Of a DNA stretch of 42,970 nt, positions 28,504 to 41,122 are shown in pieces. A model generated the notes under the pieces. The model was not told the DNA's origin, ran no database searches, and worked only from the letters and a program-made list of their open reading frames with translations. This DNA comes from Calditrichota bacterium (GTDB lineage: Bacteria > Zhuqueibacterota > Zhuqueibacteria > Thermofontimicrobiales > Thermofontimicrobiaceae). Each line of letters opens with the position of its first letter. The first letter of the stretch is position 1. Made by a program: the position numbers and the translations under genes. Location: positions 1 to 42,970 of the forward strand of contig JAADFU010000194.1 of NCBI GenBank assembly GCA_013152715.1, read 5' to 3'.

Positions 28504-28551
28504 AAGAAAGCAAAAATTTCATCAGCGTGACGATGAAATTTTTGCTTTCTT
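28504..28551. terminator. Bidirectional terminator with a perfect 20-bp stem
   Basis: Positions 28504-28523 and 28532-28551 are exact inverted repeats around an eight-base loop. It separates convergent genes ending at 28482 and 28572. A run of T follows the stem on the minus strand and a shorter one on the plus strand, so it should stop transcription both ways. Confidence 0.88.
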
Positions 28552-28571: not shown

Positions 28572-29258
28572 CTATTTCTGCTTTTCTTTTGTTAACAATG
28601 CCTTCAATTTTTTTCTCACCGGAACGAAATTGTCGTCCATTCTAAACGCTTGAATGTAATATTTTTTGGCACTAACAGTATCGCCATTTTCTTCTGCTTC
28701 CAGCCCCAGAGAAAATAATTCAATGACTTCAGCAGAAGTGTTGTTAGCAAAAAGGTTCTTTTTCTCCTCTTTGGAAAGTTTAATGTTCAAATTTTTGAGA
28801 ATCTTTTCACTCAACTTTTTGATCACTTTGAACATATTTTTTACTTTGTCGGTAACTTCCTCTGCCTTGACAGTGAGACCGGTTTCCACTTCCACAATGC
28901 GCACATCCACGCGGATTTTTTTGCCGAAAACCATGTAGCTGCCGAAAACCAGATATTTTGCCCCCAAAAGCTTGCCCACCTGAACGCCGCTATCTTCGGA
29001 AATCATTCCGCTTTGGGCAAGCTGCATCTCTTTGATGAGCTCGTTTATTTTTTGCCGCTCAACAAGCTGGAGCGATTTCACTTTGCTCAATTCGGTGATC
29101 ATTATTTCTGCCAAACCGCCGGAAAGCGATTCATATTTGTCTCTGTCCATCAAACTGTTGTTTGAAAAATCAAGAACAGCGATTGTTTCATTTGGTACAG
29201 CGTACAAAGAAATATTTATCAACAGAACAAATAGCAGAAGCACGAACAATTTTTTCAT
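28572..29258 (-). CDS. Exported CsgG/TolB-like protein without lipobox
   Basis: The 228 residues begin with a signal peptide (about 1-20, ending LYA). The body has the CsgG-type pattern: IAVLDFSNNS, GGLAEIMITELSKV, LVERQKINELIKEMQLAQSG, GKLLGAKYLVFGSY, then beta strands with DVRIVEVETG. The C-terminus is a short TPR-like hairpin (AEENGDTVSAKKYYIQAFRMD). It lacks a lipid-anchor cysteine, so it should be periplasmic or bind a membrane partner. It is clearly paralogous to the lipoprotein at 38241-39644, which starts the same cluster. GGAG precedes the ATG. CsgG itself forms the curli export pore; a pore role for this protein is unproven. Confidence 0.82.
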   Translation of the reverse strand: MKKLFVLLLFVLLINISLYAVPNETIAVLDFSNNSLMDRDKYESLSGGLAEIMITELSKVKSLQLVERQKINELIKEMQLAQSGMISEDSGVQVGKLLGAKYLVFGSYMVFGKKIRVDVRIVEVETGLTVKAEEVTDKVKNMFKVIKKLSEKILKNLNIKLSKEEKKNLFANNTSAEVIELFSLGLEAEENGDTVSAKKYYIQAFRMDDNFVPVRKKLKALLTKEKQK

Positions 29259-29279
29259 TGATTTTCTCCGTAAAATTGA

Positions 29280-30377
29280 TTAAAAAGACCACTGGCTGCC
29301 CAGCTTGAACTCATATCCCTGGTAAGCAGGATTTGCCGCCAAAATTTGCCCGTCACCGAAAAAGAGTTTCACTCCCGAAAACAGAGACAGTTGATCGGAA
29401 AATTGGTATTCTCCGACAACGCCTCCGCCAGCCAGATCTGTCCAGCCATGATTGTATTCATTCTCTACATACGAGCGAATCTCGCCAATTACGGAAAGTG
29501 AAACTTTTTCGGCAACTTTGAATTTCGCGCCGACGTGCATTTCCCTAATGGTGATATTGGAATTTTTAGGCTCCGGTTTTAATTTTTCATTGAGATAGTC
29601 ATAAATTTGATTTTTGGCTTTTGCCTGATAAAAAACCTGCAACCAGTAGAACTGGTCTCCTCGTTGATATTGAAGCGCCAATTTGGCCAAAAATTTGGGT
29701 CCCGAGGCAAAGATTTCCACATTGTCAAGCTTGTCCGCAGTGTAGTAATTGAAAACAAAATCAAAACTGCCTTGCAAATTATCCAGAATCAAATAATCAA
29801 CGCCCACATTCAAACCGATTTGTTCACCCGGGTCTAAGTCTGCAGAAAATTGATCACTGTAATTATATTTCCCGCGATAAACAAAGTTGGCGCCGCCGCC
29901 GACGGTCAGTTTGTCTGTAAACGGATAGGCGTACATCAGACCACCGCTTAAAGTAAGTCCCTGTCCGTAAACCGGAAGCAAAAATTGAAAAGACTGCCAA
30001 CTTAAAAATTTCGCCAGAATCAGTTGCGACGAATCCAGTTTGGTTTTTCCGGTCGGGAGCCCAAGACCGATGCTGGCAATCGCATTGTCACCGGCGAAAC
30101 TGTAATTTGCTTTGATCCAGGTATCGGACAGTCCCGTCATGCTGACATCGCCAAATTTGGACGTCGCCGGCGAGTGATTTATTTGCAACTGCACGTTATC
30201 GCGAATCGGATAGACAAATTCAATGGGCAACGTCCCTTCGGAAATCGCTTCAGGGACATTTTCAATGTTCCAAATCTGCAAAACCATGCTTGTACGCACG
30301 TAGCCATTCTCCGCCTGTCCAAATAAAAAAATGGGAAAAATTACAATGCCGAGCAAAAGTAGAAATACTTTCCTCAT
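29280..30377 (-). CDS. Outer-membrane beta-barrel protein
   Basis: The 365 residues have a clear signal peptide (1-20, ending FLFG). The rest alternates hydrophobic and polar residues in short strands separated by turns, and the chain ends with the aromatic residue of WSF, the usual signal for BAM insertion. GLSDTWIKANYSF followed by IGLGLPTGKTKL resembles the phenol-degradation (MetA-like) family of putative channel proteins; that family link is tentative. GGAG precedes the ATG and the next gene follows after 21 bp. As the only barrel in the cluster it may be the outer-membrane partner of the CsgG-type proteins or of the giant protein. Confidence 0.8.
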   Translation of the reverse strand: MRKVFLLLLGIVIFPIFLFGQAENGYVRTSMVLQIWNIENVPEAISEGTLPIEFVYPIRDNVQLQINHSPATSKFGDVSMTGLSDTWIKANYSFAGDNAIASIGLGLPTGKTKLDSSQLILAKFLSWQSFQFLLPVYGQGLTLSGGLMYAYPFTDKLTVGGGANFVYRGKYNYSDQFSADLDPGEQIGLNVGVDYLILDNLQGSFDFVFNYYTADKLDNVEIFASGPKFLAKLALQYQRGDQFYWLQVFYQAKAKNQIYDYLNEKLKPEPKNSNITIREMHVGAKFKVAEKVSLSVIGEIRSYVENEYNHGWTDLAGGGVVGEYQFSDQLSLFSGVKLFFGDGQILAANPAYQGYEFKLGSQWSF

Positions 30378-30436
30378 CGTATGCTCCAGAATTTACATTT
30401 TAATTCGAAAGTCAAATTCGTAATAAGCTGAAAAAG

Positions 30437-33400
30437 TTATTTCAGCAGTAAAATTTTCTTCACGTCAGTGGCTTTCCGTTCGCCGGTTATTTTCACAAAA
30501 TACATGCCGCTGGGCACAAATTGATCGAATTGATTTTTGCCGTCCCAGTGCAACTGATGCACGCCGCCGCGCATTGTGCCATTGACCAGCGTTTTTACAG
30601 ATTGTCCCAATATGTTGTAAATTTGTACTTTTACATTCATTCTTCTCGGGAGACTAAATTCAATTGTGGTCACACCGTTGAATGGGTTAGGATAGTTTTG
30701 TTTGAGAGCAAATTCAACCGGCACCAGCGGAATTTCTTCGGAATTCTGCTGAATATATTTTTCGTCGCCAACGACTAACTTGAAATGTTTTACCATGCCG
30801 TCATCCGATTGAATCGGCAGACTCAAATCTTTTCTTTCATTTAAATTGTAGGCAATATCTTCGTCAACGTCAAAAAGGTAAATCTGCCAGTTAGCAGGCA
30901 GCTTTTTGATTTCGCGAAAAGACAGGGTTGCTGATTTTGCGCCGGGAACCTGACAATCGAGCGCTAATTGCCATGAATAGCCATTCTCCCCGTCCTTTTG
31001 AAAATCAATCCGATAGGCGCCTCTTCTCTTTTTCCAATGGAAATTGTTTGCCCACAGAGAAATATGATTGCTGATCTCCGGCACTTCGGGAGAATCGTAG
31101 TGGTCAAATTCTTTGGCCGCCTTTTTCGCAGCGCCGAAAAGATTTCCTTTGTCAAAATATTTCCCACAAACCGCAGTGGCTTCAATGATGAAGCTTGCAT
31201 CGGGATACTTCTTCGCAAAATACTGCCTCTCCCCAATCGGCTTTGGCAGAAGAAGCCCATTATCTTCCATCGCCGGAACGATAATCGTTTGATTCACCGA
31301 ATCGCCGTTCCAAATAAAATAGCCTTCCCAGGGCTGGCAATATGTGACTCTCTCAGGCGGCAGCCAGCCGATGGAGTCAGAGGATTGATAATAAAACGGC
31401 CCCTGTAATACATTGTCATCCGTAGCTGATATCATGGAAAATGGAATGGTGTACGGGAACGGATTTCCCACCATGTTCCAGCCGGGCGTGAGAACGATTC
31501 TGTAATCTTGATTTTCCGGCGTAACGCCAGTTCCTCCGACAAAATCTTTCTCGCCGTCGGTCACAAGCCAGAAAGCCTTTCCGCGTTCAAATTTCCAGCG
31601 GCTGTCCTGAGTGGTGTCGCTGAATTCAACGTAGGTCGTATCTGTCTGCTCCCAATCGAACAATCTCCAACGGTAGGGATCGTACCCGCCGAAATTTTCC
31701 AACACCTTTCGGAGGTTGCTTTCCTGCAATTCGTACGGAACAGAAACCATGCGATAATGCCGCTGCGCAAGGGTCAAATTTGATGCTTCGTAGGCAGTCC
31801 GATAGCGGAGAAAATGGAATCCTTCAACTGGAAAACGAACGCCGCCCCAATTAGTCCTCAGTAAAAGCGAAAAATACAAGCCTCTCACGTCCAAATAGTT
31901 GGACGGAATTTTGATTGTGAGTCCGGATGAATAAACCGAATCTTTGCTCCAAAAATTTGTATCGACAAGGGCAGTCGCCGTTGTGGGAGTTTCTCCGCCG
32001 TGGAATAGCGTCAATTCTCCGGACAGTATTTTGAACGGAGTCGGTGCAATTTTAAACGTCAGCATGGTGTCAATTTTCGAGATGACATTGGAACTGCGAA
32101 CGAAATCGACCGCTGCCACATCTGCAACCGGGGGCGCGCCCGAGACCTTATTTTTCAATGTCAGTTCATCGATTGCCCCGTAGAAACCAACGGATTGAAT
32201 CTGTGGCACACCGCCGATGTAAAATTTATTTGCCGGCCCCAACGGATAATTCGGCTGATAATTGTAATATCCGACGCTGTCGCCATCCACAAAGACAGTG
32301 ACAAAATTCAACCCCGCTTCCTGATCGTACCCGTATTGCACCGAAATCAAATGCCAGGCGCCCGGTTCAAGCACGTAGTTTGGAAAAATATATTCTCCGT
32401 TGTAAAAATAGACGCCGAGACGCAAATCCGGCGCAATAAATAGACCATTGCCATTTTCAGTTTCGTCTAATTTATTAGAAAAAACGACCTGTCGGTAGCT
32501 GCGCGCGTCGTAACAATTCAGCCACATTTCGATATTTAGCGGCAATTCATTGAGATTGGACTCAATTTCGGCATAAGAATTATCACTTCCGCTAAATTGC
32601 ATTGCTTTTCCGGTAATTCCGTCAATCCATTGCACATTGTGCAAAATTGCGCGTCTGCCGAAAACAGAAGAATCGTAAATTGTGTCGCTGCCTGTGGGCT
32701 CGAAGCTCCAGCGTGCTTTGATTGAATCAGCAAAATCCAGCGCGTAATCACTGGCGAACCAGAGACGGCCGTTGATGTTGTCCGCGGGAATTGTAGTTAC
32801 AGGATAAAAATACCACCACAGCGCATCCGGCTGATTCCAGTTCTGGTCGCCGCGGCGAATTTTCGGCTGGCCGTTCACAAACATTTCGCAGTCAAATCCG
32901 CCGTTATTTCCCGACGAGTTATTATTCGTTCGAACGACTACGGCGATGCGATTTCTGCCCAGCGTTAAATATGGCGAAACATCCAAATTGGATTTATTCC
33001 AATATTTCAAATTCGTGTCCGTGCTGTCGAATACCATTGTATTGTTAATGATAATCGTAATTCTATTTTTGAAGCTCAAATTCATGTAAGTATTCTGAGA
33101 TTCGGGAATTTCGTACAAGTAAATGTCTTTGATGAAAAGCGCCTTCTCGTTTTTATTGGACAAAACGTCAGCAGTGTAATTGCCGCCAAAGATCGAATAT
33201 CCATCGCCAAACGGAGATGAGCCATTACCCGACCAGCCCAATTGAGACAGTGTGTTTTGCGCCGGGAAAGTGCTGACTCCGCTGCCGTACAACATGAGTG
33301 AAATTTGTTCATTGTAAACATCATTGGTGAAAATTGTCAAGCTACCGTAGTGATTTCCTTCTTGCAAAGGCTGATACGCGACTCGAATGAAACCGCTGTC

Positions 33401-36400
33401 TGAAGCCGCGACAGAATTAGGCATCTCGACAATCTTGTACATTGAATTTGCCAAACTATAGTTTGTGATATGCAAAGATGAAGATTGTGAACGATTGTAA
33501 ATTTTGAAAACAAGCTGTTTTTCCGCGCCGAGAAAAGTTTTACCAAAATCCAGATTGTCCGGAGATATTACCGCTTCTGGTCCCTCGTAAATCGTTCCCC
33601 GACCCAAAAGCGTAATGGTAACTTGTGGTTTTTCCGGGTCATTTGATTCCAGAATCAAGGCGGCTGTAGTTTGTAGTTCTGAATTTGGCAAATAAGTTAC
33701 TGATAAATATTTGCTTTTTCCTGGCTCAAGAATAAACCAGTCATTGGCGAGTTGAAATTGGCTATCATTAACTGCAACATTGAAAACAGAGAGTTTTTTT
33801 TCACCGGTGTTAAAAACAGTAATGTATTTCGTCAGGCTTCTACCCAAAGCGACAGAACCAAAATCGAGAATCGTATCCGAAACAGCCATTTTCTGAGCCA
33901 GCGGTTCTCTTCCTTTCCCGGATAAAATTACCAGCGATGTGTCATTTTCCGGATCATTGCTGACAATTTTCAGCGTATCGACGTATTTGACGCTTTCTGT
34001 CGGCTCAAAATTGACATAAACTGTCTGAAAAGAGTTGCCCAAAATAGTGAGTTCGGTCTGTGTCGGAGAAAATGCTGCCTCGCTGTTGAAGATATTGGTA
34101 ATATTAAGTTTCCTTTCTCCTTTATTATTAATTACCAGCGACATGATTTTCGCGTTATCCCTGGCGACCTCTCCGAAATTCAATGAATCCGAAGACAGGC
34201 GCAAATGCTGATTCGTGGAATCGCGTCCGGTTCCGTTCAATTGGACAAAAATGCTGTCTGCTACGGGGTCGTTGCTCACGATAATCAGTTGTCCGGCAAA
34301 CTGTTTAATGGAATCCGGTTTGAAATTTATGTACACTTTTTTTGTCGCTTCTGGCCCGATATTAAAAAACGTGACGCCGGGTCTGAAATGCGAATTTGTG
34401 GAGAGAATATTGGAAACTGTGAGCGTGCGATTGCCGATATTGCTCACTAAAATCGAATCTTTTGCCTGCGAATGAATCAAAACAGTTCCAAAATTAATTT
34501 CGGAAAAAGAAACAATTAACTGTTGCGCATTAGGTTCGCCTTTTCCGACGAGATTGATTTCCACAAATTGGTTGTTCGGATCGTTGGTCGCAAAATTCAG
34601 CACATCATTGTGTGCCATCGTATCCTGAGGCGCAAATCTTACCCACAAGTAATAAGATTGCTCTTTTTCAATGCGGATTGTGTCAGAGGCCAACGATTGG
34701 AAGGCGCTGTCTCCATTGTAAAAATGAAACACCTTGAGGATTCTGTCGCCAAAATTTTGCAGCAGAATGAATTTCTGCAGCGTGTCGCCTTGCTGAATTT
34801 TTCCGAAATTGAGCTCTGTTTTATCGTAAACAAGATAAGGATCAGACAACATTTTGCCGACGCCCACGACGGGGACATTTAACTCAGGATGTGTTTCATC
34901 ATTGCTGCTAATAGTTAATTGTCCGTTGATAGTCCCCTCGGTTTGCGGCGCAAAGGTTACATTCACATATTTTAAATTTTGCGCGGTTACGACAAATTCG
35001 GTTGTGTCCACAGTGAATTGTGAATTGTTTGAGTTGATCCCTGAAATTTCCAGTGCCGACTCTCCCCTATTGGTCACGCCCATGGCGATGGTTTTTTTCT
35101 CTCCTACAGCTATTTCGCCAAAATAAAGCGAGTCGGGGCTTACGGCGATTTCAGGTTTCAACGGCGCCCGGCTTGAGGCAAAAATTGGCACGATAAAATT
35201 CGACGTATCCGGATCATTGCTTTTGATGATTAAAGAATCCGTAATCAGTTCCGCGGCAATTACCGGTCTGAAAACAACGTTTACGTATTGTCCCTGGCGA
35301 GGTAAAACCGTGAATTCATTTTTGTCAACGACAAATTGTGTGTCAGAATGAGCAATCGAACTGATTTGTAATGCCTCATACTTATCATTATTTTGCACAT
35401 AGACAAATAACGACTGCTCTGAGCCAATGACGACTTCGTCAAAAATTAAAGTGGGCGGTGAAACAATTATCTTCGGGTTTGTCGGCAGATAGCCTTTGCC
35501 GGATACAGAGACATAAAACGGACTATTACTGTCATCATCGGAAACAATTTCAATGTTGCTTTTAACTGCATTCGTGTCAGCCGGTGAAAATCTGATCTCA
35601 ACAATTTTCGATTGCTGCGGCAACAGAGAAAAAGAGGTGTCGCTTACGGAAAATTGTGAATTTTGGGCCTGAATACTTTCGACATGCAAAATTTCATTTC
35701 CGATGTTTTGGACAGTGATTTCTCTGATTTTCGCATAGCTCGCTTTAATTTTCGTCGTATCAAAATTAATTGTTGTCGGAGAAACAGATATCTGCGGAAA
35801 CCCGGTTTCCACAGTTAAAAATTTCATTCGCGTCAAATTTTGTTTTTCATTGACCAAGTACACTTTCAAAGATTTGACATTTCTATTGTACGCGACGCAA
35901 TGCTGAACAAATTGATAAGTACTGTCAAACAAAGTATGCCATCTATTAATCGCATCTCCGGTAAAGGGATTGAAGTCTGCTTGTTCGTAAATTTGATTCT
36001 CAGAGTCGCTGTGATTGAATCTCACGAATTCGATTTGGTTCAGTTCGTTTCGGAGGAAAGATGAAGTACCAATTTCGCCGATAGAGGTTATTTGAGTGCC
36101 GTCCAGGGCAAATAGATGGAAATTATGGTAATCAAAATCATTATTTTTCTCCATCAGCCACATCCGCTGATTGATCTTGTCAGAGAAAAATGCGCGTTTG
36201 GGATTTAAAATTAATTCGTTCGTTGAAACTATATTTTCCGTTTTATAGGTTTCGCCATTATTGTTTAATATCTTCAAAATAGTAGAAAAATTATTATTTT
36301 CATTGAGTTCAAAATCCACCCACACGCGCTCGCTATCGTCTATTGCAATATCTGTATTGAAAACATAAAATCTTTTGCTCACTGCTTTAGGCTCATAAAT

Positions 36401-37003
36401 CAAATTCCCCGAAGAATTATAAGTGGCAATCATAACCTGACTTTGGCTGCGATCATGATTTGAAGTGTGCCAGGAAAACCACACCTTTCCATCATTGTCA
36501 ATCGCCAATTTGGGCAGAAAAGCATTTGTCGCCAACAGCGTTGAATCCTTTTTGACCTGACCCGTGGAATCAAAAACTACAAAATAGCCGCCATCGTCGC
36601 CCTGCAGAGCGACCCAGACGTCTCCGGTCGCGGGATTGAGTTCTGCGCGAATAGAATTTAAACGAGGTTCGGTTTCAAAAGAGCCGTGTCCGACGAGGGT
36701 TCTGTACAAATAGAGGTGGGCGTCACTCTTGAAAATTTTCATGTAAACCGGCTGATTGGCGCCAGGCGTCTCATAGTAAAATACCCACACTTTTCCAAAG
36801 TTATCAATCACGATGTCTTCGTTGTAGGTGTTGCCGATATTTGACACCACCTGCCAGCCGTCTTCGGGAATAGGATTCAAATCCCGTGTATCCAGCAAAA
36901 ATGGCGCGCTCGTTTTCGTCGCAATGCCGCCATACGCCGAGAAAATGAAAAATGTCAAAAAAATGGTTATGATAAAAATTTGAAACTTCGGCTTGTTATT
37001 CAT
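30437..37003 (-). CDS. Giant secreted ASH-repeat/LamG protein with type IX-like sorting domain
   Basis: Starting at the ATG at 37003 (GAGGG four bases upstream) the protein is 2188 residues; the longer frame adds no signal-like sequence. A signal peptide covers about 1-26. Residues 30-400 form repeats with DNFGKVWVFYY and DNDGKVWFSWH, suggesting a propeller. Residues 403-1250 are eight tandem choice-of-anchor D (ASH-like) modules. About 1255-1405 looks like a carbohydrate-binding jelly roll, and 1425-1620 is a LamG-type fold (WSFEPTGSDTIYDSS, NIEMWLN, IDELTL). A further region leads to residues 2098-2188, which begin NYPNPFNG and end in a FlgD-like domain with VPSGMYFVKI, the C-terminal sorting type used by T9SS substrates. 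It is likely secreted and held at the surface. No enzymatic site is evident. Confidence 0.9.
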   Translation of the reverse strand: MNNKPKFQIFIITIFLTFFIFSAYGGIATKTSAPFLLDTRDLNPIPEDGWQVVSNIGNTYNEDIVIDNFGKVWVFYYETPGANQPVYMKIFKSDAHLYLYRTLVGHGSFETEPRLNSIRAELNPATGDVWVALQGDDGGYFVVFDSTGQVKKDSTLLATNAFLPKLAIDNDGKVWFSWHTSNHDRSQSQVMIATYNSSGNLIYEPKAVSKRFYVFNTDIAIDDSERVWVDFELNENNNFSTILKILNNNGETYKTENIVSTNELILNPKRAFFSDKINQRMWLMEKNNDFDYHNFHLFALDGTQITSIGEIGTSSFLRNELNQIEFVRFNHSDSENQIYEQADFNPFTGDAINRWHTLFDSTYQFVQHCVAYNRNVKSLKVYLVNEKQNLTRMKFLTVETGFPQISVSPTTINFDTTKIKASYAKIREITVQNIGNEILHVESIQAQNSQFSVSDTSFSLLPQQSKIVEIRFSPADTNAVKSNIEIVSDDDSNSPFYVSVSGKGYLPTNPKIIVSPPTLIFDEVVIGSEQSLFVYVQNNDKYEALQISSIAHSDTQFVVDKNEFTVLPRQGQYVNVVFRPVIAAELITDSLIIKSNDPDTSNFIVPIFASSRAPLKPEIAVSPDSLYFGEIAVGEKKTIAMGVTNRGESALEISGINSNNSQFTVDTTEFVVTAQNLKYVNVTFAPQTEGTINGQLTISSNDETHPELNVPVVGVGKMLSDPYLVYDKTELNFGKIQQGDTLQKFILLQNFGDRILKVFHFYNGDSAFQSLASDTIRIEKEQSYYLWVRFAPQDTMAHNDVLNFATNDPNNQFVEINLVGKGEPNAQQLIVSFSEINFGTVLIHSQAKDSILVSNIGNRTLTVSNILSTNSHFRPGVTFFNIGPEATKKVYINFKPDSIKQFAGQLIIVSNDPVADSIFVQLNGTGRDSTNQHLRLSSDSLNFGEVARDNAKIMSLVINNKGERKLNITNIFNSEAAFSPTQTELTILGNSFQTVYVNFEPTESVKYVDTLKIVSNDPENDTSLVILSGKGREPLAQKMAVSDTILDFGSVALGRSLTKYITVFNTGEKKLSVFNVAVNDSQFQLANDWFILEPGKSKYLSVTYLPNSELQTTAALILESNDPEKPQVTITLLGRGTIYEGPEAVISPDNLDFGKTFLGAEKQLVFKIYNRSQSSSLHITNYSLANSMYKIVEMPNSVAASDSGFIRVAYQPLQEGNHYGSLTIFTNDVYNEQISLMLYGSGVSTFPAQNTLSQLGWSGNGSSPFGDGYSIFGGNYTADVLSNKNEKALFIKDIYLYEIPESQNTYMNLSFKNRITIIINNTMVFDSTDTNLKYWNKSNLDVSPYLTLGRNRIAVVVRTNNNSSGNNGGFDCEMFVNGQPKIRRGDQNWNQPDALWWYFYPVTTIPADNINGRLWFASDYALDFADSIKARWSFEPTGSDTIYDSSVFGRRAILHNVQWIDGITGKAMQFSGSDNSYAEIESNLNELPLNIEMWLNCYDARSYRQVVFSNKLDETENGNGLFIAPDLRLGVYFYNGEYIFPNYVLEPGAWHLISVQYGYDQEAGLNFVTVFVDGDSVGYYNYQPNYPLGPANKFYIGGVPQIQSVGFYGAIDELTLKNKVSGAPPVADVAAVDFVRSSNVISKIDTMLTFKIAPTPFKILSGELTLFHGGETPTTATALVDTNFWSKDSVYSSGLTIKIPSNYLDVRGLYFSLLLRTNWGGVRFPVEGFHFLRYRTAYEASNLTLAQRHYRMVSVPYELQESNLRKVLENFGGYDPYRWRLFDWEQTDTTYVEFSDTTQDSRWKFERGKAFWLVTDGEKDFVGGTGVTPENQDYRIVLTPGWNMVGNPFPYTIPFSMISATDDNVLQGPFYYQSSDSIGWLPPERVTYCQPWEGYFIWNGDSVNQTIIVPAMEDNGLLLPKPIGERQYFAKKYPDASFIIEATAVCGKYFDKGNLFGAAKKAAKEFDHYDSPEVPEISNHISLWANNFHWKKRRGAYRIDFQKDGENGYSWQLALDCQVPGAKSATLSFREIKKLPANWQIYLFDVDEDIAYNLNERKDLSLPIQSDDGMVKHFKLVVGDEKYIQQNSEEIPLVPVEFALKQNYPNPFNGVTTIEFSLPRRMNVKVQIYNILGQSVKTLVNGTMRGGVHQLHWDGKNQFDQFVPSGMYFVKITGERKATDVKKILLLK
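33254..35797 (-). repeat. Eight tandem choice-of-anchor D modules within the giant protein
   Basis: The 2544 bp encode eight divergent units of about 106 residues. Each shows a start like SP-x-x-L-x-F-G, a middle with L-x-I-x-x-I and N-x-x-F, and an end with SNDP and G-x-G. They match at protein level but not as DNA repeats, so the array is old or was selected for divergence. Confidence 0.85.
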
Positions 37004-37067
37004 AAGACCCTCGTTGCAATTTTTTGTCACGAAAGGTAAATCATTATCCATTTGACGCCATAATTTT

Positions 37068-38210
37068 TTATCTGGCAACGCGAAAACCAATGTCGAATCG
37101 CTTCACTTCCGGTGCAAACCTCTCACGAAAAGCGCATTGAATGTAGATATCTGACGAATTCCACGCGCCGCCGCGAACGACCTTTTCCGTTCCCGTTTCC
37201 GGCCCTAACGGATTTGACGGCGGAGAACTATCATAATAATTGCGATTGTACCAATCATTGCACCATTCCCATACATTTCCAGCCATGTTTTTCAGAAAAT
37301 AGCCATTGACAGTTAAACTGTCCACTGGCAGAGGCCCTCTGCCGCTGCCGAAATCAGCCATGAGTGGCTCGAGATAGCCGCTGTAGCCGTTGTAATTTGC
37401 TCGACTTATCGGAGAATCATTTCCCCAGGGATAAGACATTTGATCCAAATCGCCGCGAGCTGCTTTTTCCCTCTGTGCTTCTGTAGGCAAATGAAATCCG
37501 GTTTTTGAAGAATCATAGTCCCCGTTCGTCAAATCGTAGCAAGGATCGAGTCCGGCTAATTCGCTCAACCAATTGCAATAGGCAATAGCATCCCACCAAC
37601 TGACTCCAACTACCGGATATTGCGGATAATTGAGAAAATAGCCCACAGGTGCCTGATTTGTTCCCCCTTCTGTGGGATATGGATGATCTGTAATGTCGCA
37701 AAATAGCCGGTATTCTTCATTTGTCACCTCGCGTGGACTCAGCCAAAAAGTATCCGTTTCTACACTGTGAAGCGCGTTGTCCACGCCGCCGCTCATTCCC
37801 ATGTTGAAAATTCCGCCGGGAATGAGATTAGTGAGATCTATTTTGTCGTCGGACACCCAGAGTTTGACCACGTAATTTTCACCGAGGTGTTCCGGATAAT
37901 CTGCCATGGCGTCCCAGTAGATCTTGTGGTTATCGCCAGAGACTATTCCCAATCCATAATCCCCGCTAAACGATTGCGCCGGAACTCGAAAAGTTTGGCC
38001 GCCATCGGCGGAAACGCGCAACAACACGACCATTGTATCCTGATCCAGATCAAAAATACTGTAATTGATTTCTACCATTTTTGTATCAGGATTTTGCTTC
38101 ACAAAAACGGTATCAATGATCGGGACTCTTCCCTGGGCTAATAAATCAGATGAAAAAATGACAATTGAAATAAAAATAAAAATTAGAGGTGTGCGGAAAA
38201 TGTATTTCAT
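37068..38210 (-). CDS. Exported SUMF1/FGE-fold protein lacking catalytic cysteines
   Basis: The 380 residues begin with a signal peptide (about 1-25, ending LLAQG). Residues 27-125 form an Ig-like or beta domain (NYSIFDLDQDTMVVLLRVSADGG). From about 130 the sulfatase-modifying-factor fold is clear: GGIFNMG, SPREVTNEEYRLFCD, PVVGVSWWDAIAYCNWL, HLPTEAQREKAARG, NMAGNVWEWCNDWY and VVRGGAWNSSDIY...GFRVAR. True formylglycine-generating enzymes have a cysteine pair in the block following the RGG motif. Here that block has a single cysteine (IQCAFRER), so it is probably not an active FGE, and no sulfatase is nearby. Proteins like this often bind ligands or act as exported modifiers. It overlaps no neighbour and precedes the giant gene by 64 bp. 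Confidence 0.87.
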   Translation of the reverse strand: MKYIFRTPLIFIFISIVIFSSDLLAQGRVPIIDTVFVKQNPDTKMVEINYSIFDLDQDTMVVLLRVSADGGQTFRVPAQSFSGDYGLGIVSGDNHKIYWDAMADYPEHLGENYVVKLWVSDDKIDLTNLIPGGIFNMGMSGGVDNALHSVETDTFWLSPREVTNEEYRLFCDITDHPYPTEGGTNQAPVGYFLNYPQYPVVGVSWWDAIAYCNWLSELAGLDPCYDLTNGDYDSSKTGFHLPTEAQREKAARGDLDQMSYPWGNDSPISRANYNGYSGYLEPLMADFGSGRGPLPVDSLTVNGYFLKNMAGNVWEWCNDWYNRNYYDSSPPSNPLGPETGTEKVVRGGAWNSSDIYIQCAFRERFAPEVKRFDIGFRVAR

Positions 38211-38240
38211 ACTCTCTACTCCACCATTGTTTTGATTTGA

Positions 38241-39644
38241 TTACGGCGTATTCGGATTGTGCACTTCCGGCGGCTTAGGCGGCAAAGGTAATATTTGTTT
38301 ATTGATTATCCAATCGGGCAAATTCTGAACAACGTCATCTTGCAACAATTCAGAATTGCCGTTTCTCGATTGATTTCCGGGCAAGTAGCCCAAATCCAGA
38401 TTTCGCGCCATTTGACGCAGTCGGAATTGAGCGAACCGCTGGGCGCGGGGCTTATTCGCGAAACGTCGCGGCCGTGTACCCAGTCGGCGCAACTGATGAC
38501 GCTTAATCATCGGATGCTGCGCCATAAATTTGCCCTTTCGAATAAATCCCATTGAAAAAGATTGATTTGCCATATTGCGCGCCAGACGGAATCTTGAATC
38601 AAAACGTAGCGCTGCTTTGAAATGATTTACCGCTGCGTCATAATTGCCCAGATCGTAGGCGTCCAACCCCTTGCAGAATTCCAGAAATGCATCGATGCTC
38701 TTTGTTGTGTTTTCTTGAATTCGTTTTCGTTCTGCAGAGGATAATTTGATATTTAATTTATCCAGAGTATTGAAAACAATCTTTTTCTCGATATTTAAAA
38801 TATCCTTCAGCTCCCCTTTGAACTGTCTGCTCGCAATAGACTTGCTTTGAGCCACGTCTACGATATCAGAATTTACCGTCAGGAAACGTCCTGCTTTGAT
38901 CAAAAATCCGCCGTGCACCAAATCTTTCGCTCGAACGAGACGTCCCATGCGCGGCGCTATTTTCGGATCGGCAAGTCCGGACATCGCCAGTTCCATTTCA
39001 TCCAACAGTTTTTGCAATTGTACTCGTTCAATAACGCGCAATTTTTTTACTTGAGTGAAGTCAGTAATCAGCATTTCCGCCAGTCCTTTGCTCACAGCGT
39101 CCCAGCGGGGATCTTCGGCTAAATTGGCGAAATAGAGCACAGCAAGCGTATTATCGACAACCTGTCCCATGCCCACGCTTTTTTCCAATTGAAGCGCCAT
39201 TTTAGCGCGGGCTTCCATTTCCTTTTCCACCATAAAATTGAATCTGGCTTTTATCAGATCATAATATGGATCAGAAGACGAAAGAAATTGGTAGTAACGG
39301 TAAATTCTTTTGGCGAGGGAAAATTTTTCTTTCTGCTCCAGATTCAAGCCGGCGTAAAAAATAGCAGCGCTGTTGTAGGTATCCAGAGATAAAATACGTT
39401 TGCTCAAATCGAACGACTTCTTGTATTTGCCCAAACCGTAATAGGCGATCATCGCTCCAGTCAACGCCGGAACGTCTTTCGAGAGATTGAACGAGGCTTG
39501 CGCTTCTGCAAGCCGAATGTACTCTTTAAGGGCAAGATCATATTTTTCCTGCTGCAAATACTTATCTGCCGTCAGGTAACGATTGCTGGCACAACTTGCG
39601 ACAATTAAAAGCAAACTCATACAAAAGAAGAAGTACTTTCGCAC
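38241..39644 (-). CDS. CsgG-type outer-membrane lipoprotein with TPR and Arg-rich tail
   Basis: The 467-residue protein starts at GTG, with AAAGGAG five bases upstream. The signal peptide ends in VASC with the lipid-modified cysteine at residue 18. Residues 20-150 are TPR-like. About 165-310 is a CsgG-type domain: NTLAVLYFANL, KGLAEMLITDFTQV, RVIERVQLQKLLDEMELAMSG and HGGFLIKAGRFLTVNSDIVDV. A TPR hairpin follows (DLGNYDAAVNHFKAAL). The tail is unusual: about 45 residues rich in arginine (RRLGTRPRRF, RFRLRQMAR-like) then a proline-rich end. It opens the five-gene cluster. CsgG-domain lipoproteins can form outer-membrane pores, but many family members do not; function is inferred. Confidence 0.82.
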   Translation of the reverse strand: MRKYFFFCMSLLLIVASCASNRYLTADKYLQQEKYDLALKEYIRLAEAQASFNLSKDVPALTGAMIAYYGLGKYKKSFDLSKRILSLDTYNSAAIFYAGLNLEQKEKFSLAKRIYRYYQFLSSSDPYYDLIKARFNFMVEKEMEARAKMALQLEKSVGMGQVVDNTLAVLYFANLAEDPRWDAVSKGLAEMLITDFTQVKKLRVIERVQLQKLLDEMELAMSGLADPKIAPRMGRLVRAKDLVHGGFLIKAGRFLTVNSDIVDVAQSKSIASRQFKGELKDILNIEKKIVFNTLDKLNIKLSSAERKRIQENTTKSIDAFLEFCKGLDAYDLGNYDAAVNHFKAALRFDSRFRLARNMANQSFSMGFIRKGKFMAQHPMIKRHQLRRLGTRPRRFANKPRAQRFAQFRLRQMARNLDLGYLPGNQSRNGNSELLQDDVVQNLPDWIINKQILPLPPKPPEVHNPNTP

Positions 39645-40028: not shown

Positions 40029-40057
40029 TTGACTGATTGATAAAATTTCGTTATGTT
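40029..40057 (+). promoter_or_regulatory. Promoter of the kinase-dCMP deaminase gene
   Basis: TTGACT (40029-40034), 17 bp, TATGTT (40052-40057). The predicted start near 40064 lies just before both candidate start codons. Confidence 0.68.
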
Positions 40058-40078
40058 TTTAGTCAAACCACCAGAGAA

Positions 40079-41122
40079 ATGAGACCAAACCGCGAGCCTG
40101 ACATGATTATTGGCTTGACCGGGGCCAATGCTGCCGGAAAAACAGATTTTATGAATTATCTTGAGACAAAGGGATTTGCTTCCTATTCTCTTTCGGATAT
40201 CATTCGCGACGAATTGGCATTCAGGAACCAACCCCTATCGCGAAAAAATTTGATCCGTGTTGGCAACGAATTGCGCAAAGAATTGGGACCGTCGGTTCTC
40301 GCCGACCGTGCCAAAGAAAAGATCGAAGGAAGAAACGTTGTCATTGACAGCATTCGCAACCCCGCAGAGATATTATCGTTGCGCGAGCTGCCAAATTTTT
40401 TCATGGTTTCCATCGATGCACCTGTGGAATTGCGCTACAAGCGCGCTAAAAAACGCGGCCGGTTGGAAGACGTCAATTCGCTGGAAGAATTCATTGCCAT
40501 GGAAAAAAGGGAAAAAAGTGAGGACTCCAACGAGCAAAATCTCACTCAGTGTATGCGCATGGCGGAATTTCACATCATAAATTCCGGCTCGCTAAAGGAA
40601 TTTCATGAAAAAATCGAACAAGCGCTATCTCAAATCGAGCTGCGCGTACGCCCCACCTGGAAAGAATATTTTATGAAAATGGCGTTTTTGGTAGCTGAAC
40701 GTTCCACTTGTCTGCGCCATCATGTAGGAGCAATTATTGTCAAAAACCGCCACGTTCTGACGACGGGATACAATGGCGCCGCCAGAAAAACAAACGACTG
40801 CCTCAGGCTGGGATGTTTGCGAAATCAATTGAGTATTCCCTCAGGCGAAAGACATGAAATTTGCCGCGCCATTCATGCCGAGCAAAATGCGATTATCCAG
40901 GCCGGCGTTCACGGCGTTTCAATCGAAGGCGCCACGCTCTATTGCACGCATTTTCCTTGCATCATTTGTGCCAAAATGATCGTCAACGCGGGCATCACCA
41001 AATTGGTCGTCGCCCAGGGTTATCCTGACAAGTTCAATTTAGTCATGGAATTATTCGATGAGGCGGGTGTGACCGTGGAGCAGGTTCCCATTCCCGACAA
41101 TAAAATTCGCATCGTTCCCTAA
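40079..41122 (+). CDS. P-loop kinase-like domain fused to dCMP deaminase
   Basis: The 347-residue protein has two domains. The first (about 1-190) opens IIGLTGANAAGKT, a Walker A, with SLSDIIRDE, IDSIRNP and a R-x-x-x-R-x-K basic lid, resembling dephospho-CoA/adenylate-type kinases. The second (about 195-347) is a zinc deaminase: HAEQNAI with H266, then PCIIC with C294 and C297, plus DCLRLGCLRN and GATLYCTHFPC typical of dCMP deaminases, which make dUMP for thymidylate synthesis. Yeast Dcd1 and the phage-defence protein AvcD share a similar order of domains. Start choice is open: ATG 40103 (MIIGL) would remove eight residues. It stands alone with its own promoter and terminator. Confidence 0.85.
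   Translation: MRPNREPDMIIGLTGANAAGKTDFMNYLETKGFASYSLSDIIRDELAFRNQPLSRKNLIRVGNELRKELGPSVLADRAKEKIEGRNVVIDSIRNPAEILSLRELPNFFMVSIDAPVELRYKRAKKRGRLEDVNSLEEFIAMEKREKSEDSNEQNLTQCMRMAEFHIINSGSLKEFHEKIEQALSQIELRVRPTWKEYFMKMAFLVAERSTCLRHHVGAIIVKNRHVLTTGYNGAARKTNDCLRLGCLRNQLSIPSGERHEICRAIHAEQNAIIQAGVHGVSIEGATLYCTHFPCIICAKMIVNAGITKLVVAQGYPDKFNLVMELFDEAGVTVEQVPIPDNKIRIVP

Follow-up and report, generated by a model that had tools for sequence, protein, structure and literature searches.

The locus analysed here raises the question of why a very large surface protein with a type IX secretion system (T9SS) sorting tail is encoded between two CsgG-type proteins, and whether these proteins export it. The window, a stretch of 42,970 nucleotides from a Calditrichota bacterium (contig JAADFU010000194.1), carries on its minus strand five open reading frames for exported proteins, separated by gaps of 30, 64, 59 and 21 bp. 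A sequence-only reading of this DNA had described five signal-bearing frames on one strand with gaps of 21–64 bp and regarded them as a single surface-assembly or secretion unit, and these frames and gaps are present as described. The source bacterium is related to candidate division KSB1. Open reading frames were called by a simple script, and N-terminal signals were judged by eye, not with a predictor. In transcription order, the features are as follows.

38241..39644, minus strand: CsgL, 467 residues, a putative outer-membrane lipoprotein (by its lipobox) with TPR repeats, a CsgG/LpoB/TolB-type domain, a short TPR and a disordered C-terminal tail
38268..38291, minus strand: LPLPPKPP motif in the sequence of the CsgL tail, residues 452-459
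37068..38210, minus strand: SUMF1/FGE-fold protein, 380 residues, with an N-terminal extension and no catalytic cysteine pair (pseudo-enzyme)
30437..37003, minus strand: the giant, 2188 residues from the ATG at 37003, with a signal, an N-terminal region, ASH-type domains, LamG, a 335-residue block and a T9SS type A tail
30731..31750, minus strand: block of 335 residues in the giant (residues about 1752-2091; M[VI]SVP... PGWN... PWEGYF..., with conserved W, P, G, Y and F residues), conserved across giants and outside Pfam families
30449..30694, minus strand: T9SS type A sorting domain of the giant (TIGR04183)
29280..30377, minus strand: outer-membrane beta-barrel of an unnamed family, 365 residues, about 14-16 strands
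28572..29258, minus strand: CsgS, 228 residues, a short, soluble paralog with the CsgG fold, TPR-like helices at its C-terminal end and no membrane hairpins
28505..28550, minus strand: strong terminator-like hairpin at the end of the unit, made of a 20-bp inverted repeat with a T run behind it, 21 bases past the last stop

Pfam searches bear out the CsgG, SUMF1, ASH, LamG and sorting-tail assignments made from the letters alone: the second protein matches FGE-sulfatase with 167 bits, and the giant contains 7-8 ASH-type domains, Laminin_G_3 and Por_Secre_tail. No account of such a gene set came up in literature searches.

The grouping of the five genes is not due to chance, because their order is kept in other genomes. 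The order CsgL–giant–barrel recurs throughout the phylum, and the full order CsgL–SUMF1–giant–barrel–CsgS is also found in three genomes of the same order (G002, G005 and G010), with a fourth (G008) lacking only CsgS. Co-occurrence of the families in related genomes, which had been named as a check, is thus found phylum-wide for CsgL, giant and barrel and within the order for all five. The form without the SUMF1 protein is the wider one and occurs in tandem at two loci (L081 and L084), and the source genome itself has a second copy of the unit on another contig (C70). The barrel family is present in 37 of the 60 related genomes and in 52 of 82 phylum-wide. With a single exception (L064), CsgL lies upstream of the barrel at every locus with enough contig. 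At barrel loci that have a giant, its position is mostly between CsgL and the barrel, with one giant per barrel–CsgL pair. About half of the barrel loci of relatives have no block-bearing giant; a giant-less form is common and often runs CsgS–CsgL–barrel followed by a protein of about 400 residues. Because loci that vary in the giant, the SUMF1 protein and CsgS recur around CsgL and the barrel, these two form the core, and the SUMF1 protein and CsgS are optional. The idea of a single conserved surface-assembly unit therefore stands, with CsgL–giant–barrel at its centre rather than all five genes. It is real and conserved, and is probably dedicated, at the outer membrane, to a single giant T9SS cargo.

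The protein of about 400 residues located 3' of the barrel (L046, L047, L052, L054, L057 and L083) appears to be a lipoprotein and has no sorting tail. A LamG domain is found in two of the four such proteins scanned (L047 and L054). This protein is possibly an alternative surface partner at the giant-less loci.

The two CsgG-type proteins score 36.6 and 52.6 bits against a Pfam CsgG cut-off of 20.8, covering only the first half of the profile. The lipobox cysteine of CsgL (Cys18) is nearly invariant among 26 relatives, and TPR segments are present. The structural model of CsgL has a pLDDT of 73.5, which falls below 50 from residue 385 onward, marking an unstructured tail. The listed matches of this model include TolB, LpoB, GNA1162, PelC (TMt about 0.55) and FlgT, but not CsgG. 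In PDB sequence searches, the best matches of CsgL are all TPR proteins, and CsgS has no match. An alignment with the C52 CsgG pair of the source genome and with what we take to be the E. coli CsgG reference sequence and its hairpin positions shows that both membrane hairpin segments are missing from CsgL, CsgS and eight orthologs. Independently of that E. coli sequence, the C52 protein aligns with solved CsgG through the first hairpin. CsgL and CsgS thus share with the curli channel the fold of its soluble core but have neither membrane hairpin. They resemble LpoB, the TolB N-terminal domain, FlgO/FlgT and GNA1162, which have a periplasmic CsgG-like fold without a pore, although the CsgL domain differs from all of these in being fused to TPRs and linked to a barrel and a giant. 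A 'CsgG' annotation in these genomes therefore need not imply curli or an export pore.

No Pfam family matches the barrel. Its AlphaFold model (pLDDT 87.6) has an outer-membrane beta-barrel fold, and Foldseek returns generic FadL and 14-16-strand porin matches without a close relative. Named relatives, from a degenerate scan with the closer rows of an alignment that as a whole lacks conserved stretches, belong mostly to candidate division KSB1, with one Caldithrix and one Bacteroidetes-labelled record. Membership of the PorP family was rejected by HMM: the window barrel does not match TIGR03519 or PF11751 (PorP/SprF), and one of 32 relatives does so at an E value of 5e-5. Profile comparison with PorP-like barrels gives 73% over 135 columns, against 98% for a PorV–PorP control, and a distant kinship with PorP-like barrels is possible on this sequence comparison. 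Membership of the PorV family was likewise rejected, as the barrel is not among the 38 NF033709 (PorV) matches and the profile comparison with PorV gives 15%. The conserved CsgL–giant–barrel order supports the earlier proposal that the barrel is the outer-membrane partner of the giant.

The sorting domain of the giant scores about 43.9-46.9 bits against TIGR04183 (cut-off 23), so the tail first read as type IX-like belongs to type A; the type B sorting family is absent among its NCBIfam matches. This tail, together with the conserved unit, supports the view of the giant as cargo. SprA is encoded in the source genome (895 bits with neighbours in frame, cut-off 200) and in all 60 related genomes. 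Because SprA is encoded in every one of these genomes and the type A tail is above cut-off, the translocon for the giant is more likely SprA encoded elsewhere in the genome than a protein of the unit. When giants are compared, only the last 490 residues or so are common to all, comprising the 335-residue block, a short stretch and the sorting tail; the rest is variable. The block has no Pfam match. The source genome also contains 131 matches to the type A sorting tail and, over cut-off, 25 to the PorV family, so that its set of cargo and shuttle proteins is unusually large.

The SUMF1-fold protein had been suggested to be a helper. Ser and Ile occupy its catalytic cysteine positions, and the cysteine pair is absent from all five aligned sequences (the window protein and four homologs). 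An enzymatic role was rejected on the loss of both catalytic cysteines. An assignment as PorK was also rejected: the protein scores 130.7 bits against GldK/PorK TIGR03525, below the cut-off of 350, and is still the best match in the source genome. This genome has no GldK/PorK above cut-off despite SprA and many cargo proteins. The ring component of the T9SS may be different in this lineage.

The linkage between the 335-residue block and a proline-rich tail on a neighbouring protein is the most novel part of the unit. In the source genome, the block occurs at exactly two of the 131 sorting-tail places, and the same two are the only ones with a CsgL on one side and a barrel of the family on the other. 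Confinement of the block to barrel loci was nevertheless rejected, as it occurs in 50 of the 60 genomes, many of them barrel-less. Barrel-less loci were therefore inspected, which led to the proline-rich tail: at the first twelve, most block-bearing giants adjoin an exported protein ending in LPxPPxxP or near it. With the tail defined as PP.{1,2}P within the last 30 residues, it is present in 16 of 16 CsgL proteins beside a block-bearing giant, which are not sixteen independent events because giant-linked CsgL proteins form one or two clades of the CsgL tree, where several independent gains of the tail are not seen. Elsewhere it is found in none of 23 CsgL proteins (24 counted by the script, minus one window TPR protein that is not CsgL) and in 3 of 383 other genes, drawn like all background genes from the same neighbourhoods rather than from whole genomes. 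Loci newly added at the phylum level give the tail in five of six CsgL proteins beside a giant (L176, L183, L185, L187 and L193, not L191) and in none of five without one.

Forty further barrel-less loci that were not used in forming the tail idea served as a held-out test. In these, 33 of 43 block-bearing giants have a tail-bearing immediate neighbour on the same strand, against a background of 0 of 97 (Fisher p 1.5e-23). The ten misses include two with a near-variant motif and some at contig ends. Among sorting-tail proteins without the block, a small control sample, one of eight has the tail. The tail-bearing neighbours belong to about eight families, trypsin-like and TPR-PEGA proteins among them, that show no detectable similarity to one another except in the tail, and it is because these partner families are unrelated that the block–tail linkage counts as independent. 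In nearly all non-CsgL partners, a hydrophobic helix lies some 40 residues before the end. Giants with such partners were noted within L123-L174. The tail gene lies upstream of the giant at some loci and downstream at others.

Taken with the conserved gene order, these observations suggest that the unit is, on balance probably, a dedicated outer-membrane receptor or anchor for one giant T9SS cargo, working like PorE–PorP but outside those families. The giant would be exported by Sec and then by the SprA translocon by way of its type A C-terminal domain. Its docking complex would consist of CsgL, facing the periplasm, and the barrel embedded in the outer membrane. This pair would hold the giant much as PorE–PorP/SprF hold type B cargo, with a TPR lipoprotein of CsgG/LpoB fold and a barrel from a family without a name as its components. 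The LPLPPKPP end of the disordered CsgL tail would dock onto the 335-residue block just before the sorting domain, perhaps threading through the barrel to reach it; the idea of threading through the lumen is drawn from the RcsF/OmpA precedent (PMC7553776). CsgS would add another CsgG-fold subunit in the periplasm, and the SUMF1 protein would have a structural, non-catalytic role in the version of the unit found within the order. We also propose, tentatively, an undescribed surface-attachment code, in which about eight unrelated envelope families would hold T9SS giants bearing the aromatic-rich block through a shared C-terminal LPxPPxPP tail, brought across the outer membrane by the hydrophobic helix of the protein itself or, in the present unit, by a lipoprotein and its cognate barrel. 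If the anchor reading holds, T9SS-bearing phyla outside Bacteroidota, the home of most studied cases, evolved their own dedicated receptors for giant surface proteins, drawing on CsgG-fold lipoproteins that form no pore and on a new family of barrels. The block–tail linkage provides a short and directly testable motif for the possible attachment of such giants to the cell.

Several points count against the anchor. By HMM the barrel belongs to neither PorP nor PorV, type A sorting tails of Flavobacterium use PorV, and a block-bearing giant is missing from about half of the barrel loci of relatives. The small number of clades behind the 16 of 16 count and the use of neighbourhood genes as background weigh in the same direction. 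Most non-CsgL tails follow a hydrophobic helix, and should this helix sit in the inner membrane in the ordinary way, downstream of a signal peptide, the tail would end up in the cytoplasm and away from the giant. A cytoplasmic location does not suit the tail of CsgL, a lipoprotein that has no helix of this kind.

The closest known parallels are cargo-specific. In P. gingivalis, the TPR lipoprotein PorE, the FadL-family barrel PorP and the CTD cargo PG1035 form one complex (PMC9143113), and particular large adhesins of F. johnsoniae have SprF-type barrels as their cargo-specific shuttles (PMC12618676). As in PorE–PorP–PG1035 and SprF–SprB, a TPR outer-membrane lipoprotein and a dedicated barrel stand beside a very large T9SS-tailed surface protein, and there are several such cargo-specific pairs per genome. 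In contrast, the window barrel is outside the PorP family by HMM, the giant has a type A rather than a type B tail, and CsgL has a CsgG/LpoB-fold domain in place of the beta-propeller and OmpA-like domains of PorE; neither a beta-propeller nor an OmpA-like peptidoglycan domain gives a Pfam match in CsgL. The available portions of this literature (PMC9143113 and PMC12618676) describe no proline-rich tail or 335-residue block. By analogy, the unit would follow PorE–PorP logic with different parts.

Among the alternatives, an envelope sensor fares best but is unlikely. The surface giant would signal through the barrel and the periplasmic lipoprotein in the style of RcsF–OmpA/OmpC, in some members to a cytoplasmic kinase. 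Such signalling has a precedent in RcsF/OmpA (PMC7553776); PEGA-type Ser/Thr kinases adjoin several giant-less CsgL–barrel loci, kinase-like genes adjoin some block-bearing giants, and several tail proteins, such as the trypsin-like and TPR-PEGA ones, are sensor-like. However, a kinase is absent from the unit of the window and from its close relatives.

It is quite unlikely that CsgL and CsgS form a ring beneath the barrel as in PelBC, exporting a polysaccharide or other polymer with the giant as a surface accessory. In PelBC, the lipoprotein PelC forms a ring that sits on a TPR-linked barrel (PMC12141448). Both systems combine a CsgG-fold lipoprotein, TPR repeats and an outer-membrane barrel, joined in one complex in PelBC; the CsgL domain matches PelC with a TMt of about 0.55, and giant-less CsgL–barrel pairs exist. 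In the unit, however, the TPR is fused to the CsgG-fold part and not to the barrel, and the partner is a protein: polymer synthesis genes are absent from the unit of the window, with none seen to recur near the barrel, and there is one giant per barrel–CsgL pair where a giant is present.

A role of the polyproline tail in translation, with ribosome pausing coupling CsgL to the giant, or in the cytoplasm, instead of docking, is very unlikely. PPxPP stalls ribosomes without EF-P, and an inner-membrane anchor would agree with the helix that precedes the tail in partners other than CsgL. Yet the tail gene lies on either side of the giant depending on the locus, and the tail of a helix-free lipoprotein such as CsgL cannot be cytoplasmic.

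Secretion of the giant by the CsgG proteins as a curli-like outer-membrane pore, a function that the sequence-only reading had cited for CsgG domains of enterobacteria, is hardly credible and was rejected: despite Pfam CsgG matches over cut-off, the transmembrane hairpins are deleted from both paralogs and the aligned orthologs, whereas the C52 CsgG keeps the region of the first hairpin, the CsgL model fits TolB, LpoB, GNA1162 and PelC with CsgG not among the matches listed, the five proteins of the unit give no Pfam match to CsgA, CsgE or CsgF, and CsgG pores pass small unfolded subunits, not a multidomain protein of 2188 residues.

Two adjacent CsgG-type proteins are encoded at L068:8294-10347 (G000:C52), one of which covers the CsgG profile over its full length and has the region of the first hairpin. 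This C52 protein may be a genuine CsgG-like channel, encoded away from the unit in the source genome.

Ser/Thr kinases, several with PEGA or TPR, were noted at L040, L044, L061, L062, L063, L067, L146, L164-L166, L172 and L173, some of them identified only through similarity to scanned ones or by their C-terminal sequence. Upstream of the unit in the window (40037-41122, plus strand) lies a gene in which a P-loop kinase-like domain and a dCMP/cytidine deaminase domain appear to be fused, and genes resembling it are also located near the unit at L035 and L041.
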